Part shown: one piece after another, positions 1 to 8,880 of the stretch
Numbering within the stretch: position 1 is the first letter of the stretch
Layout: the number at the start of each line of letters is the position of its first letter
Assembly (NCBI GenBank): GCA_017456685.1
Contig: JAFTIV010000100.1
Coordinates: 1 to 11,997 of the forward strand
Direction of reading: 5' to 3'
Origin: Clostridia bacterium
Lineage (GTDB): Bacteria > Bacillota > Clostridia > Oscillospirales > CAG-272
Length of the DNA: 11,997 bases
Notes under the pieces: model-generated
Told to the model about the DNA's origin: nothing
Databases searched by the model: none
The model's input: only the letters and a program-made list of their open reading frames with translations
Translations under genes and position numbers: made by a program

Positions 1-39
1 CACTTTTCACTCTTCACTTTTCACTCTTCATTCCCCCGC
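1..39 (+). repeat. 3' part of dispersed intergenic element, cut by the window edge
   Basis: Positions 1-39 match the reverse complement of 7072-7110 at all 39 bases. The sequence holds four heptamers alternating CTTTTCA and CTCTTCA (3-30), followed by ATTCCCCCGC. It corresponds to the tail half of the element also found at 116-180 and, inverted, at 7081-7166. Its head would lie upstream of the window. No coding capacity is apparent. Confidence 0.8.
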
Positions 40-59
40 CCCCTTTAGAGTAAGGGGGG
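39..59. repeat. GC-rich palindrome with 3-base loop
   Basis: CCCCCTTTA (39-47) pairs with TAAGGGGGG (51-59) around a GAG loop, giving nine base pairs with one G:U. It directly follows the heptamer tail of the preceding repeat, as another triloop hairpin does next to the copy near 7081. No T-run follows, so it is not a typical intrinsic terminator. The next stretch (60-115) contains GACAGCGTAGC and G-runs but no gene or promoter I can support. Confidence 0.6.
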
Positions 60-115
60 ACAGCGTAGCAGGGGGGATTGTAAGCCCGTTCGAGAGAACA
101 GATAGGATAGGCTTC

Positions 116-180
116 CATCAAATATAAATCAACGAAAACAGTGCGCAGGCGCGTTTTCTACCTTTTTTCTTCACTCTTCA
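116..180 (+). repeat. Dispersed intergenic element, copy with internal bulged hairpin
   Basis: Positions 116-174 align without gaps to the reverse complement of 7108-7166, with 52 of 59 bases identical by my hand count. Inside it, GAAAAC (134-139) pairs with GTTTTC (153-158) and GCG (143-145) pairs with CGC (150-152). This leaves an AGT bulge (140-142) and a CAGG loop (146-149). Three of the seven differences from the other copy fall in that loop. The tail has only about one and a half TTCA-ending heptamers, against five in the copy near 7081. Function is unknown: it could be a small mobile repeat or a structured RNA. Confidence 0.75.
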
Positions 181-282
181 TTTCACCGCGAAGCGATTTC
201 ATCTGCAGAGCAGATTTCAACCACGCACCGCGTGGATTTCAACCATACGGAGTATGGATTTCATTGCAGAGCCCCGCTCTGC
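180..282 (+). repeat. Array of five short hairpins upstream of addB
   Basis: Five consecutive inverted repeats are separated by ATTTCA or ATTTCAA linkers. They are CGC-GAA-GCG (187-195), ATCTGC-AGA-GCAGAT (201-215), CCACGC-ACC-GCGTGG (221-235), CCATAC-GGA-GTATGG (243-257) and GCAGAGC-CCC-GCTCTGC (266-282). Every loop is three bases and the last four stems are perfect. Positions 180-222 are a direct repeat of 7206-7248 with two differences. The last stem ends three bases before the addB Shine-Dalgarno, so the array would sit in the 5' leader of an addBA transcript. The same DNA stays open in the addB frame from 141, which makes a false N-terminal extension possible. Confidence 0.85.
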
Positions 283-285
283 CTC

Positions 286-291
286 AGGAGG
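286..291 (+). promoter_or_regulatory. Shine-Dalgarno of addB
   Basis: AGGAGG lies five bases before the ATG at 297. It decides the start: an in-frame ATG at 141 would add 52 residues translated from the repeat and hairpin array, has no comparable binding site, and would not match AddB proteins, which begin with the P-loop-like strand. Confidence 0.9.
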
Positions 292-296
292 ACCTT

Positions 297-3200
297 ATGG
301 TTATATTTTTACTTGACAGGCTTGGAACGCCGAAAAACGAATACATAGTTGACAAAATCGCGACGGATGTGGCAAACGGCACACCCGCCTTTTGGCTTGT
401 TCCTGAGCAGAGGGCGGTGCTTTGCGAGCGCACTCTTGCGCTAAAATTAGACCCAAGCGCACAGCTTATAGCTGAGGTTTTGAATTTTACAAGGCTTGGA
501 AACAAGGTTTTCCGCGAGAGTGGCGGACTTAAGCACAATTACATAACAAGAAGCGGAAAAAGCCTCATTATGTATCGCGCGCTTTGTCAGGTTAGAGCCT
601 CTCTTGAGGAGTACACCATACCAAGGGGCAGAGAAAGAGGCTTTGTTGACCTTTTCCTTGATGCGGTTGGAGAGATTAAGTCCTACTGCGTGTCCCCTGC
701 CGAGCTTGAGGGGGCAAGCGCGAGCATAGAGAGTCCTCGCCTAAGAGGCAAAATAGCCGACCTTGTGCGCGTTTTCGGCAAGTATAACGAGCTTTTGACG
801 AGCGCATATAGCGACCCTTATGATGATTTGATAATGCTCGCTGAAAAGCTTGAGCAAAACAGGCTTTTTGAGGGAGCGAATGTTTATATAAGCTCATTTG
901 ACGGCTTTACGGGCGCGCAAATGAAAGCCCTACAGAGGATTTTCGAGCAGGCGGAAAATGTGTATGTCGCGCTCGATATGCGTACAAGCGATATAGGAAA
1001 AATTCAATATCTAAAGCTTACCGAAACGCTAAGAGCCCTTGAAAATCTTGCAAAACGGGCAGACCAAGAAATCAAAAGAGAGCACCTCGGGGGCAGGACC
1101 TATCACGAAAACCCCTGCCTTGACTACCTTAGCGACAATGTGTGGGCCTTTGGCGCGCCACCCTATGAGGGAGAGGTAAGCGGAATTACCCTTATGCGCC
1201 CAAGCGACGAGTTTGACGAGTGCGAAAGAGTTGCAGGCAAAATTAAGGAGCTTGTAATGAATGGCGCAAGGTACGGTGAGATTGCCGTAATTATGCGAAG
1301 CGCAGACACATATCGCGGTATAATAGACTATTGCTTTGACAAATATGATATACCCTATTATGCTTCGGTAAGCACCGATATTACGCTAAAGCCCTTAATT
1401 CGCTTTATCTTTTCGGCAATAGGCGCATCGAGCGACTACAACACAAGAGATATAATTTCATTTATAAGAAGCGGTTATGCGGGAATTTCCTATGACGATG
1501 CGGACGAGCTTGAGAGCTACATTTACCGCTGGGGAATTTACGGCAAGCGCTTTGAAAACGACGACTTTTGGTCGGCTAATCCCGACGGCTACGAAACCGA
1601 GACAACCGATGAGCAAAGGGCGCGCCTTGGCAGAATAAACGACACAAGGGCGCGCGTAATCAAGCTTCTTTTACCGCTTCGCTCAGCGCTTCAAGGGGGC
1701 TCAAGCGCTCCTGAGCTTTGTCGCGAGCTTTATAATTTACTACTCACCCTCAAGGTAAGAGAGACAATTAAGGCGGAGATGGAGGGCGCAAAAAGCGCAG
1801 AGAAGAAGGAGCTTAGTCAGCTCTATCGTGCAACAATTCGTGCCCTTAGCGAGGTTGCAGACATAATGCCCGATGAGCCCATTGACAAGGAGGGCTTTGT
1901 CGCGTCGCTTTCGTATGTTTTAAACGAGGTAAAAATAGGAACTATACCAACAGGAGAGGACAATGTCACAATCGGCGAGGCGGGCGCGCTTCGCACAGAG
2001 AGCATAAAATACGCGTTCGTTATAGGCGTATGTGAGGGAAGCTTTCCTCAGGTCGTGCAGGGTGGCTCGTTCTTTAGTGATAGCGACAAAAAGGAGCTTA
2101 AGAGGCTGAAAATCAACCTCTCGGCTGGCACGGACATTCGCGCAGACGACGAGCTCTTGAACTTCAAAAACAGCATAGCCATAGCCTCTCAGGCTCTTAC
2201 CGTGAGCGCACCCTGTGGCGATATTAAGGGTGCAAAGAGAGAGCCAAGCATGGCTTATCGCAGAATAATAGAGCTATTCCCCGCCCTTGAGGGGGCACAG
2301 GAGAAGGACAGAGGCGTGCTTGACAAGCTCTACACAGAGAAAATCGCACGCGAATATAGCACGGGGGAGACGCCTGAGGCGCACGCAATTCGTAAGCACC
2401 TTGGGATTAGCGAGCGCACAGGCGAGGCAAGCTACTCAAATGACGAGCTTTCAATTTCCCCGAGCAGTATGTCCGCTATTTTGAAAAACAGACTATACCT
2501 TTCACAGTCGAAAATCGAAAAATTTGTCGGCTGTCGCTTTGCGTACTATTGCAAGTATGCGCTAAAGCTAAAGGACAGCGAGAAAATCAGCTTTGGTGCG
2601 CGCGAGGTTGGAGTGCTTACGCATAGCGTGCTTGAGCATTTCCTAAGACAAATGAAGGGCGCAGACCCTAAAAAGCATCTAACCGACGAGGAAATAAGCG
2701 AAGCTATTGACGAGATAACCGATGATTATATTCGTCTTTTATACCCACAGGGTGAGCCCACAAGCAAGCTAAAGCACCTTTTCGCAAGGCTTAAGAGCAA
2801 TCTTTTGGTGTATATAAGAGAGCTTGAGGAGGAAAGGGAGCAGAGCGACTTTGTCCCTGAGCTCTTCGAGATTAAATTTTCAAGGGAAAACGGTATTGAG
2901 CCACTTTGCTTCGACCTTGGCGACGGCAGAAAAATCACCCTGACGGGAACGGCTGACCGCGTCGATGTCTATGAGCGCGAGGGCAAGCTTTATTTGCGCG
3001 TTGTTGACTATAAAACAGGCGAGAAGGCGTTCTCGTTTGACGAGTTTAGAAAGGGGCTTCAGCTTCAATTATTTATATATCTGTTCACTCTGTGTAGCGA
3101 GGACAGCCCGAGACTTAAAGAGACTCTCTTTGGCGAAAGAGCCAAGGAGCTTGAGCTCGTGCCAGCGGGGGTTATGTATTACCCTATGGAGCTTGGCAAG

Positions 3201-3542
3201 GGAAAAATCGAGGCGAGCACCAAAATCGGCGAACAAGAGGAGCGCGAGGCAATTAAGGCGCTGGCAAAAAGGCGCGGAGTGTTCCTTGATGATGAAATAG
3301 TGCTACGCGCACAGGACAAGGAAATGAAGGGAAGATTTCTTCCCAAGAAGGGCAACAATAAAAAATATTACTGCACAAGCGAGCAATTTGACGATTTAAA
3401 GGGCGAGCTTGAGAGTATTTTAAGAGAAATAGGCAAGCAAATGCTCGATGGTAACGCATTGGCAAGGCCCGAGACCGAGGGCGAGCACGGACAATGCTCA
3501 TACTGCACAAACAGAGCAATCTGCAGAAGGAGGAGAAAATGA
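297..3542 (+). CDS. addB: AddB, nuclease and Chi-recognition subunit of the AddAB helicase-nuclease
   Basis: AddB partners AddA to unwind and resect double-strand DNA breaks in the cytoplasm until Chi is recognised, preparing 3' single strands for RecA. The chosen start gives 1081 residues, a little shorter than B. subtilis AddB (about 1166). The N-terminal half is the inactivated helicase-like fold; a pseudo-helicase block (GVCEGSFPQ) lies near residues 574-590. The C-terminal RecB-type nuclease shows H776 (GVLTH), D887 (GTADR), D904-Y905-K906-T907 and Q922/Q924. The iron-sulfur cluster cysteines are C746 and C1067-x2-C1070-x5-C1076. The Walker A region at residues 7-14 reads DRLGTPKN, so the canonical glycines are lost. 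The TGA stop overlaps the addA start (ATGA), indicating translational coupling. Identification is firm; the state of its ATP site is inferred. Confidence 0.96.
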   Translation: MVIFLLDRLGTPKNEYIVDKIATDVANGTPAFWLVPEQRAVLCERTLALKLDPSAQLIAEVLNFTRLGNKVFRESGGLKHNYITRSGKSLIMYRALCQVRASLEEYTIPRGRERGFVDLFLDAVGEIKSYCVSPAELEGASASIESPRLRGKIADLVRVFGKYNELLTSAYSDPYDDLIMLAEKLEQNRLFEGANVYISSFDGFTGAQMKALQRIFEQAENVYVALDMRTSDIGKIQYLKLTETLRALENLAKRADQEIKREHLGGRTYHENPCLDYLSDNVWAFGAPPYEGEVSGITLMRPSDEFDECERVAGKIKELVMNGARYGEIAVIMRSADTYRGIIDYCFDKYDIPYYASVSTDITLKPLIRFIFSAIGASSDYNTRDIISFIRSGYAGISYDDADELESYIYRWGIYGKRFENDDFWSANPDGYETETTDEQRARLGRINDTRARVIKLLLPLRSALQGGSSAPELCRELYNLLLTLKVRETIKAEMEGAKSAEKKELSQLYRATIRALSEVADIMPDEPIDKEGFVASLSYVLNEVKIGTIPTGEDNVTIGEAGALRTESIKYAFVIGVCEGSFPQVVQGGSFFSDSDKKELKRLKINLSAGTDIRADDELLNFKNSIAIASQALTVSAPCGDIKGAKREPSMAYRRIIELFPALEGAQEKDRGVLDKLYTEKIAREYSTGETPEAHAIRKHLGISERTGEASYSNDELSISPSSMSAILKNRLYLSQSKIEKFVGCRFAYYCKYALKLKDSEKISFGAREVGVLTHSVLEHFLRQMKGADPKKHLTDEEISEAIDEITDDYIRLLYPQGEPTSKLKHLFARLKSNLLVYIRELEEEREQSDFVPELFEIKFSRENGIEPLCFDLGDGRKITLTGTADRVDVYEREGKLYLRVVDYKTGEKAFSFDEFRKGLQLQLFIYLFTLCSEDSPRLKETLFGERAKELELVPAGVMYYPMELGKGKIEASTKIGEQEEREAIKALAKRRGVFLDDEIVLRAQDKEMKGRFLPKKGNNKKYYCTSEQFDDLKGELESILREIGKQMLDGNALARPETEGEHGQCSYCTNRAICRRRRK
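3527..3533 (+). promoter_or_regulatory. Shine-Dalgarno of addA inside the end of addB
   Basis: AAGGAGG lies inside the last codons of addB, five bases before ATG 3539. It favours this start over the in-frame ATG at 3494, which would add 15 residues encoded by the addB iron-sulfur cysteine region and lacks a good binding site. Confidence 0.85.
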
Positions 3543-7051: not shown

Positions 7052-7080
7052 TTTCCCTGCGGGAATGTCCCGCGGGGGAA
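7052..7080. repeat. 13-bp hairpin with 3-base loop after addA
   Basis: Positions 7052-7064 pair with 7068-7080 around an ATG loop, with two G:U pairs. The hairpin starts four bases after the addA stop. It could slow or protect the addBA transcript end, but a purine-rich sequence follows on the + strand instead of a T-run, so it is not a standard intrinsic terminator. It sits next to the heptamer repeat, just as the 39-59 palindrome does. Confidence 0.6.
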
Positions 7081-7166
7081 TGAAGAGTGAAAAGTGAAGA
7101 GTGAAAAGTGAAGAGAAAAGGTAGAAAACGCGCTCACGCACTGTTTTCATTGAGTTATCTTTGATG
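7081..7166 (-). repeat. Inverted copy of the dispersed intergenic element
   Basis: Read on the minus strand, this is the second copy of the element at 116-180. The tail has five heptamers (TGAAGAG and TGAAAAG alternating on the + strand, 7081-7115). The internal bulged hairpin occupies 7124-7148: on the minus strand GAAAAC, bulge AGT, GCG, loop TGAG, CGC, GTTTTC. With the copy at 116-180 it forms an inverted pair around addBA, about 6.9 kb apart. Confidence 0.8.
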
Positions 7167-7181
7167 AAAGCCGTCAAGCTC

Positions 7182-7288
7182 AAATCCAAAAAGCAAGCTT
7201 TTTGGATTTCACCGCGAAGCGATTTCATCTGCAAAGCGGATTTCAACCGTCGCAAGACGGATTTCATTGCGGAGCAAGGCTTCGCATT
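7182..7288 (+). repeat. Array of five short hairpins upstream of the SASA esterase gene
   Basis: Five inverted repeats lie in order. The first pairs 7182-7194 with 7197-7209, a perfect 13-bp stem around AA. The others are CGC-GAA-GCG (7213-7221), ATCTGC-AAA-GCGGAT (7227-7241, one G:U), CCGTC-GCAA-GACGG (7247-7260) and TGCGGAGC-AAG-GCTTCGCA (7268-7286, one G:U). Linkers are again ATTTCA or ATTTCAA. Positions 7206-7248 match 180-222 at 41 of 43 bases. The outer hairpins differ in sequence from the array before addB but remain paired. The array ends five bases before the next gene's Shine-Dalgarno. Confidence 0.85.
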
Positions 7289-7302: not shown

Positions 7303-8880
7303 ATGTTAAAGCTTGCAACGATATTTACAGACCATATGGTGCTTCAGGCAAACAAGCCGATTAAGATTTTCGGCTCGGGCGAGGGAAGCGCGACTATTGA
7401 ATTTTTAGGCAAGACCTACGAGGCATATGGAATAGGGGAGAGCTGGTGTATAGCCATTGATGCTATGCCATATGGCGGACCCTATGAGATGAGCTTTGAG
7501 AGTGAGGGTACAAAAATCACTCTTTGCGACATCTATGTTGGCGAGGTGTGGGTTGCCTCTGGTCAATCTAATATGGAGATGCCTCTTTTTAGAGTTGACG
7601 GTGGACTTACTGAGGCAAGGCTTGCGGAAAACAGCCTTATAAGATTTTTCACCGTGCCAAAGCAATTTAAAAGGGGCTTGGCAATGAAGGGCACTCACTT
7701 TTACGAGATGGACTGCATAGACACCCCTTGGCGCCTCTGCACCGAGGAAAGCGCCCTTGGCGTTTCGGCAATCGGCTACACCGCGCTTAAGGAAATTCAA
7801 GAGAGGCTCGGCTGTGCGGTTGGACTTATCGAGTGCAACTGGGGCGGACGAAGGATAGAGCCCTTTATAGACAAGAAATATTTCTACGATTACGATTTTC
7901 TCCGTCCTCAAATCGAGGAGTACAACGAAATGCTCGCAGAGCTTGACACAGAGGCGTACGAGGAGAGGATTGCAGAGCATATCAAGATTAGAGAGCGCGA
8001 GATGGAAAAGCATCTTGATGCACTGCAAATGGTAAGGGAGCGCGGAGTTTGCCCCGCTGTTTGGATTCCCGAGTTCAATGTTCACATTCCCGAGCTTCCA
8101 CGCGGGCCATATTCGCTTGATGCCCCTGGCACACTCTTTGATTCAATGGTGTCAAAGATAATCCCCTATGGCATACAGGGCATTTTGTGGTATCAGGGCG
8201 AGAGCAACAACACCGAAAACTACGCAAAGAAATATCTTGTGTTTACAAAGTGTATGCGCGAGTCGTTTGAAAACGAGGAGCTCTCCTTCTACGCGGTAGA
8301 GCTTGCGCCCTTTGACTACAACGGCATTGACGATGAGTTCGTCACCGACCCGAACAACTGGGCGTTTAGGCGCGAGCAACAGATGCTTGCTACCAAGGTT
8401 GACAAAAGAAGCCACCTTGTAACAACTCAGCACCTTGGCGACGAGTTCGACATTCACCCAAGGGCGAAAATCGAGCTTGGACACAGAATGGCACTCAAAA
8501 TGCTAAAGCACACCTACGGCTTTGATATAATAGGCGACCAGCCAACCTATAAAAAAGCCACCTTTGAGCAAAATCGCGTAACCGTAGAGCTTGATAATGC
8601 GCAGGGGCTTTACACTCAATATTGGTGGGTGTTTAAGATGTATGTCGCTGACGAGGCGGGCAATATGGAAAGGGCTGAGGTCGAGATTATGGACGACTCT
8701 CGCCTGATATTAAAGTGTAAAATGAAAAAGCCCACCGCGGTGCGCTTTGCGTTCCATTCGCATTACAACGGAATGGCGCCCTTCAACCTTGCGGGACTTC
8801 CTCTCTCGCCCTTTAGAACCGACGGCTACGACGAGCTTCTTAAGGAAATAGAGGACTTTGCGAAAAACGAATTAAACTGA
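7303..8880 (+). CDS. Sialate O-acetylesterase family (SASA) carbohydrate esterase
   Basis: The 525-residue product matches the SASA family, which removes acetyl groups from sialic acids or from plant-polysaccharide sugars. The nucleophile block GEVWVASGQSNME contains S89. A second family block, WYQGESNN, lies at 296-303, and DIHP supplies D383 and H385 as the likely acid and base. No signal peptide or membrane segment is visible, so the enzyme is probably cytoplasmic and acts on imported oligosaccharides or free sugars. It starts a compact run with an SGNH hydrolase 26 bases downstream, an ABC-F gene and another SGNH hydrolase, pointing to a group of deacylases. The exact substrate cannot be read from sequence: sialate and acetylated xylose or mannose units are all possible. 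Length is typical and no truncation is seen. Confidence 0.9.
   Translation: MLKLATIFTDHMVLQANKPIKIFGSGEGSATIEFLGKTYEAYGIGESWCIAIDAMPYGGPYEMSFESEGTKITLCDIYVGEVWVASGQSNMEMPLFRVDGGLTEARLAENSLIRFFTVPKQFKRGLAMKGTHFYEMDCIDTPWRLCTEESALGVSAIGYTALKEIQERLGCAVGLIECNWGGRRIEPFIDKKYFYDYDFLRPQIEEYNEMLAELDTEAYEERIAEHIKIREREMEKHLDALQMVRERGVCPAVWIPEFNVHIPELPRGPYSLDAPGTLFDSMVSKIIPYGIQGILWYQGESNNTENYAKKYLVFTKCMRESFENEELSFYAVELAPFDYNGIDDEFVTDPNNWAFRREQQMLATKVDKRSHLVTTQHLGDEFDIHPRAKIELGHRMALKMLKHTYGFDIIGDQPTYKKATFEQNRVTVELDNAQGLYTQYWWVFKMYVADEAGNMERAEVEIMDDSRLILKCKMKKPTAVRFAFHSHYNGMAPFNLAGLPLSPFRTDGYDELLKEIEDFAKNELN

Follow-up and report, generated by a model that had tools for sequence, protein, structure and literature searches.

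The array of hairpins lying directly in front of the addB gene is probably a non-coding and rearranged copy, with one arm only, of a scattered mobile element, the complete form of which carries a gene of the 23S rRNA IVP family. Direct reading of the window, that is, the whole stretch of 11,997 nucleotides analysed here, confirmed five hairpins between positions 187 and 282, each with a loop of 3 bases and joined to the next by ATTTCA(A), the final stem stopping 3 bases short of the addB Shine-Dalgarno sequence AGGAGG (286 to 291), as the sequence-only reading had described them. The array (180 to 265, minus strand) is of the one-armed Gut-1 type with minus-strand linkers GAAAT. Its hairpins, all assigned to the minus strand, are CGC-GAA-GCG (187 to 195), ATCTGC-AGA-GCAGAT (201 to 215), CCACGC-ACC-GCGTGG (221 to 235), CCATAC-GGA-GTATGG (243 to 257) and an end hairpin, hp0 (266 to 282), which reads GCAGAGC-GGG-GCTCTGC on the minus strand and GCAGAGC-CCC-GCTCTGC on the plus strand, and whose 3' foot abuts the outer end of the element, AATGAAATCC. 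When folded as DNA, the minus strand gave exactly these five hairpins (minimum free energy -24 kcal/mol, z -5.30), and none of 200 shuffles equalled it. The plus strand folded as RNA gave z -3.22, equalled by 1 of 200 shuffles, with hairpins 1 and 3 pairing with each other instead. A second copy of the array lies at 7182 to 7288 (minus strand). The two copies precede addB (297 to 3542, plus strand; ADDB_N and PD-(D/E)XK nuclease domains) and a SASA-domain gene, respectively, and neither is inside a 23S rRNA gene. Each has a single arm, with no tRNA or IVP gene adjoining. No match to a sigma-70-like promoter was obtained in window positions 1 to 400.

The sequence-only reading recognised no known riboswitch or leader class in the array, but the minus strand is in fact Gut-1 of Rfam (RF01706), the model consensus of which is three hairpins joined by GUGAAAU. 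With the curated cut-off of the covariance model, 50 bits, as the threshold for membership, positions 191 to 266 qualified with 51.2 bits, whereas positions 7201 to 7269 of the second copy stayed under it with 48.8 bits. Gut-1 was described by Weinberg and others 2010 (PMC2864571) as 'Human gut only' and as a likely non-coding RNA candidate, with neither function nor partner gene given in the accessible part of that paper, and the literature records available to us held nothing further on Gut-1 or RF01706 by name. The genome to which the window belongs (1.43 Mb, 64% complete) harbours at least 51 Gut-1 matches, 22 of them above the cut-off; among them are at least four pairs that form the two arms of a single element, so that such elements may be counted twice. 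The expectation of further copies in related genomes was borne out, Gut-1 matches being present in 28 of 38 genomes (own genome included) and numbering at least 10 in 20 of those; such copy counts are lower bounds where candidates outnumbered those scored. Among 14 control genomes, E. coli gave matches, which were under the cut-off. A stricter linker pattern retrieved at least 119 stretches from named genomes, and among the 80 matches listed, 69 came from Clostridia, Clostridiales, Eubacteriales, Oscillospiraceae or Ruminococcus-type records, mostly animal-gut MAGs, 9 from other taxa (Shewanella, Gemella and similar) and 2 were ambiguous. The array is thereby a member of a scattered, multi-copy repeat lying between genes, in the manner of MITE-like sequences. 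One Shewanella candidate (L317) was rejected as a simple ATTTC repeat. A loose pattern, TGAAATC three times, retrieved at least 120 stretches from viral contigs, likely by chance for the most part. In one IMG/VR viral contig (L057, 5025 to 5176) the linker pattern occurs both forward and inverted, with about 50 bases between, which may mark a two-armed element of a virus or prophage.

Comparison of orthologous sites revealed that presence of the arrays is patchy. The addB gene was found in 27 of the 29 genomes of the genus, and in 22 besides our own about 100 bases or more were readable before it. No array preceded addB in 21 of these 22, and the remaining genome (G015) carried an array with a different linker. 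Behind the gene which we take to be pnp, 24 genomes were readable (two further rows were unreadable and left out), and a Gut-1 type array was present in G003, one with another linker in G014, and none in the other 22. The absence of arrays at addB and pnp of most relatives thus gives the patchy presence seen for insertions. At the site of element L193 in G003, genome G013 keeps the same bases just past the stop codon and then diverges, its downstream DNA being wholly different and devoid of such a terminator. At the tRNA-Trp site, a Gut-1 core is present in G003, a different repeat with an IVP gene behind it in G013, and plain sequence in G006 and G002; the rows of G033, RGIG3898 and RGIG3001 (Gut-1) and of G025 (AATGAAG linkers, IVP) were included because they bear elements, and three more rows stop 2 bases past the tRNA. 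Presence and absence thus differ, in comparisons at species level, at addB, pnp, the gene before L193 and tRNA-Trp, while no empty site at base level was found among the sites compared. The arrays before addB in G015 (L262) and behind pnp in G014 (L254), with linkers ATGAAT/ATTCAT and of that kind, respectively, apparently follow the Gut-1 plan with another linker.

These comparisons bear directly on the framing of the array as an addB leader. An addB-specific leader or riboswitch was rejected, as the array is not conserved before addB. That the array acts on addB through mRNA stability or through nuclease or protein binding is very improbable: it does stand directly before the Shine-Dalgarno sequence, but it is absent from this place in 21 of the 22 other genomes, and the unrelated gene at 7303 has a similar array in front of it. 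Among the roles offered by the sequence-only reading, the evidence favours that of a mobile palindromic repeat and leaves that of an addB leader unsupported. We judged addB to be unrelated to the function of the array, and the copy on the addB side most likely has no dedicated function there.

In relatives, many Gut-1 matches lie beside a second, inverted array. Gut-1 is there one arm of a two-armed element of about 185 bp. The core runs in the order AACGAAAT, hairpin, GTGAAAT, hairpin, GTGAAAT, hairpin and so on to ATTTC, followed by arm B in the order ATTTCAC, hairpin, ATTTCAC, hairpin, ATTTCAC, hairpin, ATTTCACT. The arm A linker GTGAAAT is the reverse complement of the arm B linker ATTTCAC, and the ends AACGAAAT and ATTTCACT are inversely alike. 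The complete form thus comprises hp0 (mostly terminator-like), arm A with about 3 to 4 hairpins, a centre, and arm B with 3 hairpins. Row filtering reduced 127 cores to 123 (three L363 and one L354 rows dropped; L317 had been dropped before the 127-core IVP count), then to 116 on removal of cores without a readable A end and of a duplicate of L428, and to 85 on removal of near-duplicates. Stems of at least 4 pairs were present between linkers in 182 of 234 arm A segments (4% when shuffled) and 143 of 163 arm B segments (8% when shuffled). These inter-linker segments comprised 134 distinct sequences in arm A and 130 in arm B; their sequence varies and their pairing is kept. The 5' arm of the first hairpin recurs as its complement at the centre, exactly over 6 bases in 61 of the 85 non-redundant cores, 38 of which share one arm type. 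A closing helix of at least 9 pairs, with one mismatch allowed, was found in 80 of the 85 cores as compared to 1688 of 4198 swapped partners, or 713 of 3223 when only different first-hairpin types were swapped, and an earlier swap test, still including chance matches like L317, gave 80 of 140 against 372 of 2785. The loose count is weak, since swapped controls often pair, and it is the exact 6-base count that carries the weight. By eye, the first hairpin of arm B (L171, L203, L205, L222 and others) often has a tandem G.A / A.G mismatch, for example ATCGA..GAGAT, in several genomes.

The sequence-only reading held that the window array was not a simple tandem repeat; the array does consist of repeat, however, as positions 180 to 222 recur at 7206 to 7248 at 95%. 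The hairpin at 187 to 195 is shared with the array at 7206 to 7269 and that at 201 to 215 is near-identical there, while those at 221 to 235 and 243 to 257 are second-arm (B) units elsewhere in the same genome, the latter with one loop base changed; units 3 and 4 match the second-arm units of L002 and L013 save about one base. As judged from these unit matches, the window array mixes units of both arms, A and B, and recombination probably made the addB-side copy. Further repeats flank both window arrays, including a 71-base module beside the array (110 to 180) with an inverted copy at 7102 to 7172 (87%), and in other copies (L002, L006) a module like it adjoins arm B.

For one complete core (L334), the DNA fold of lowest energy was a ladder (z -6.92), in which the linkers of the two arms pair and the hairpins project on both sides. 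Pairing of at least 2 linkers across the arms was predicted in 74 of 84 cores (one core left out) as DNA and in 65 of 84 as RNA. The ladder of two arms is a prediction of the folding model, arising in part because the linkers of the two arms are complementary. This result bears on the reading of Gut-1 as a genuine non-coding RNA family, under which the window would hold two minus-strand RNA genes. The listing of Gut-1 as a non-coding RNA candidate in the part of the 2010 paper seen (PMC2864571), stems that stay paired despite differing sequence, and the ladder predicted for RNA too in 65 of the 84 cores all speak for such RNA genes. We nevertheless consider them distinctly improbable in view of up to about fifty matches per genome, the patchy sites, the many cores in relatives that stand behind a terminator-like hairpin, and the TATAAT-like hexamer that follows the core and precedes the gene in 9 of 12 IVP-bearing copies, as scored by eye. 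With a terminator-like hairpin before the core and a promoter-like hexamer after it, neither neighbour obviously transcribes the core. The mobile element remains the reading that we prefer.

The complete elements occupy a characteristic place. In 61 of 83 non-redundant cores (two cores without 70 upstream bases being left out) a hairpin foot coincided exactly with the A end; at control positions 50, 70, 90 and 110 bases upstream the corresponding counts were 0, 0, 0 and 2 of 83. The last 8 bases at the A end included at least 5 T in 64 of the 83 cores, which is terminator-like. A tRNA gene lay upstream of 45 of 123 cores, with many isotypes represented and a gap of 28 to 45 bases, approximately the length of a terminator. 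One element (L041, G033) lies behind the tmRNA gene and its hairpin, so that targets include more than tRNAs. In a second format, termed T-type, the element was seen by eye within apparent terminator loops of protein genes, with complementary outer arms in 9 of 10 aligned copies and, in some copies only, apparent target duplications of 2 to 3 bases, none of them firm. Two such copies (L216 and L221) are 95.6% alike over 338 nt and have different outer arms. Judged from the alignments, T-type copies likely represent insertion into a terminator loop; this falls short of proof because at the one compared site, L193, the downstream DNA differs and G013 has no terminator. End hairpins differ widely across named genomes, and most hp0 were hence provisionally taken as host terminators. 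The hp0 tip TTTGTCTACCAAGACAA, by comparison, occurs 10 times in the 38 genomes, 7 of them adjoining a listed Gut-1 match, which favours hp0 as part of the element.

A four-helix-bundle gene of the 23S rRNA IVP family starts 20 to 75 bases behind 12 of the 127 cores (L047, L319, L332, L333, L334, L365, L377, L403, L408, L419, L422 and L427, two of the genes being interrupted), and IVP remnants lie behind the cores of L205, L222 and L388. Three core-linked IVP proteins and one from the window's own genome matched TIGR02436 with 93 to 101 bits, and for the L334 protein a relative of solved structure exists, 2rld. Between core and IVP gene, 9 of the 12 copies have, by eye, a hexamer that differs from TATAAT by one base at most. 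PF05635 was present in 26 of the 28 genomes with Gut-1 as compared to 3 of the 10 without (Fisher p 2.9e-4, kinship ignored), leaving two Gut-1 genomes without IVP and three IVP genomes without Gut-1. The window's own genome, a 64% complete assembly, yielded no IVP of the GAAAT type; two of its three IVP places have arrays with other linkers (C118, GTGAAGT; C136, GTGATAT) and the third is cut by a contig end. Separately, behind arm B there is a stretch with promoter-like and Shine-Dalgarno sequence that recurs about 50 to 51 bases ahead of the start codons of various genes (L171, L173, L204, L218, L224, and the IVP remnants L205 and L222), as if genes had been joined at the start codon to a mobile promoter.

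Because array, promoter-like sequence and IVP gene adjoin, the arrays might instead be operators, with the IVP protein binding the linkers and regulating its own promoter, and solitary arrays regulating other genes, addB included. The tracking of the linker with the IVP subfamily, described below, would suit such operators. We regard them as quite unlikely all the same, since 115 of the 127 cores have no complete IVP gene visible behind them and many stand behind terminator-like hairpins, the arms are inverted and pair-forming in a manner unlike usual operators, and the array is not conserved at addB.

An IVP-first survey, chosen without reference to Gut-1, covered 60 of 90 PF05635 places, mostly from the better-scoring end and thus non-random. 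A 6-mer occurring at least three times and followed by its reverse complement at least three times was found at 24 of the 60 IVP loci, many of them with linkers other than that of Gut-1, in 13 of 1352 control tiles drawn from pnp and addB loci, and in none of 600 shuffles. This array score of 3 was missed by 36 of the 60 loci, and at a score of at least 2 the numbers were 47 of 60 against 257 of 1352, so that control arrays are not rare at that level. A tRNA on the same strand lay upstream at 24 of the 60 IVP loci as compared to none of 924 control tiles and none of 30 phylum-wide IVP genes. A general link of IVP and array across the phylum was absent, arrays being found at 1 and tRNAs at 0 of the best 30 IVP loci (61 genomes matched). 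A linker could be assigned from a fixed list in 35 of 73 IVP entries, the assigned linkers being GTGAAAT, GTGATAT, GTGAAGT, GTGATGT, AATGAAG, AATGATG, AGCTAAAT, ATGAATT, TCATAAC and TTATATT. Gut-1 is thus one linker type among about ten, and linkers of different types are also complementary between arms. Likeness of IVP proteins between genomes was 0.718 with the same linker as compared to 0.515 with different linkers (0 of 5000 permutations), and the nearest IVP in another genome shared the linker in 20 of 25 cases, where 23 could. At the level of sequence comparison, this shows that array and IVP gene travel or evolve together, an association which may reflect only shared inheritance and is in itself no proof of recognition.

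Dispersal and patchy presence of the element are thus plain from the comparisons, and for its mechanism of movement we infer the following. The element would move as a folded single strand, either DNA or RNA copied to DNA. On the strength of the folding energies, complementary linkers would close its two arms upon each other as a ladder of four-way junctions, to which the IVP protein would bind, and a hairpin in the target would guide insertion. Copies without IVP, including both copies in the window, would have moved in trans or spread by recombination. A Y1 (REP-type) transposase was considered as partner and rejected, since Y1_Tnp (PF01797), the transposase family searched, had no match in the window's own 64% complete genome and matched in 17 of 38 genomes; G030 has five Y1 matches and no Gut-1, and G003 has no Y1 match and 33 Gut-1. 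The element could also be an inert MITE-like repeat, spread by an ordinary transposase in trans or by recombination, with the IVP gene as a passenger and the hairpins without a role. Such inertness would fit the dominance of IVP-less copies and the recombinant look of several copies, the window's own included. It appears rather unlikely to us, because the stems keep pairing while their sequence changes, the two arms keep complementary linkers across different linker types, and 51 Gut-1 matches in the window's own genome stand beside none to a Y1 transposase, the only family tested.

As to known systems, REP/BIME sequences, which are associated with RAYT (Y1) transposases, are short palindromes with a conserved foot that occur as inverted pairs in many intergenic copies. 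The present element shares these features and differs in its free stem sequence, conserved linkers and arms of 3 to 4 hairpins, and in that no Y1_Tnp was found in the window's own genome. Integron attC sites keep their structure while their sequence varies and are read as a folded single strand, and group IIC introns insert just behind terminators; the likeness of our element to both is by analogy, and we claim no membership. The BOX repeat of pneumococcus, as described in the accessible part of PMC3049150, is likewise an interspersed repeat built of modules, which varies in how many inner units it holds and has a predicted fold, but is without an inverted arm of complementary linkers, an IVP and a fixed place behind terminators. 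As for Gut-1 itself, the minus strand of the window scores above the curated cut-off, though the Gut-1 model covers one arm of what is here a two-armed, multi-copy element. The intervening sequences of 23S rRNA that carry S23/IVP genes share the protein family (TIGR02436, PF05635) and a hairpin-rich build with our elements. The Coxiella intervening sequence sits in helix 45 of 23S rRNA, much as the present elements sit at or in terminator-like hairpins, and S23/IVP proteins have no known function according to the part of that paper available to us (PMC4990558). The present elements differ in lying outside rRNA and in having their own promoter-like sequence and a two-armed linker array. A figure legend in PMC10910872, on CRISPR-linked systems, names the 23S rRNA IVP among domains, so that, as far as this legend goes, the family has other settings. 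Titles and abstract openings of the best-matching literature reported no link of IVP or its four-helix bundle to mobility, tRNA genes, repeats or insertion at terminator hairpins.

Taken more broadly, and with somewhat less than an even chance in our estimate, these elements would form a new class of mobile elements, in which a four-helix-bundle IVP and its cognate two-armed hairpin ladder insert at the feet or loops of terminator hairpins, favouring tRNA genes. The linker would be the specificity code of protein and array, Gut-1 one of about ten codes, and the 23S rRNA intervening sequences distant relatives also sitting in hairpins. Gut-1, catalogued since 2010 as a probable non-coding RNA of the gut, becomes one of the two arms of a repeat for which there is a candidate partner protein. 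If true, the S23/IVP four-helix-bundle family would gain a testable role in mobility and be linked to elements that choose hairpins as targets. A caution follows for RNA motif searches, where 'covariation' can stem from mobile DNA with folded ends.

Two other repeats were observed at the margins of the window. Positions 1 to 39 and 7072 to 7110 hold CACTTTTCACTCTTCA repeats that are 100% inverted copies of each other, and a stretch resembling them sits between tRNA-Trp and the IVP gene in G013 (L297), by which likeness the CACTTTTCACTCTTCA repeats may be another IVP-linked repeat class. Positions 40 to 100 hold a repeat of G and C runs, CCCCCGCCCCCTTTAGAG...GGGGGGACAGCG, which recurs inverted beside the array in L006.
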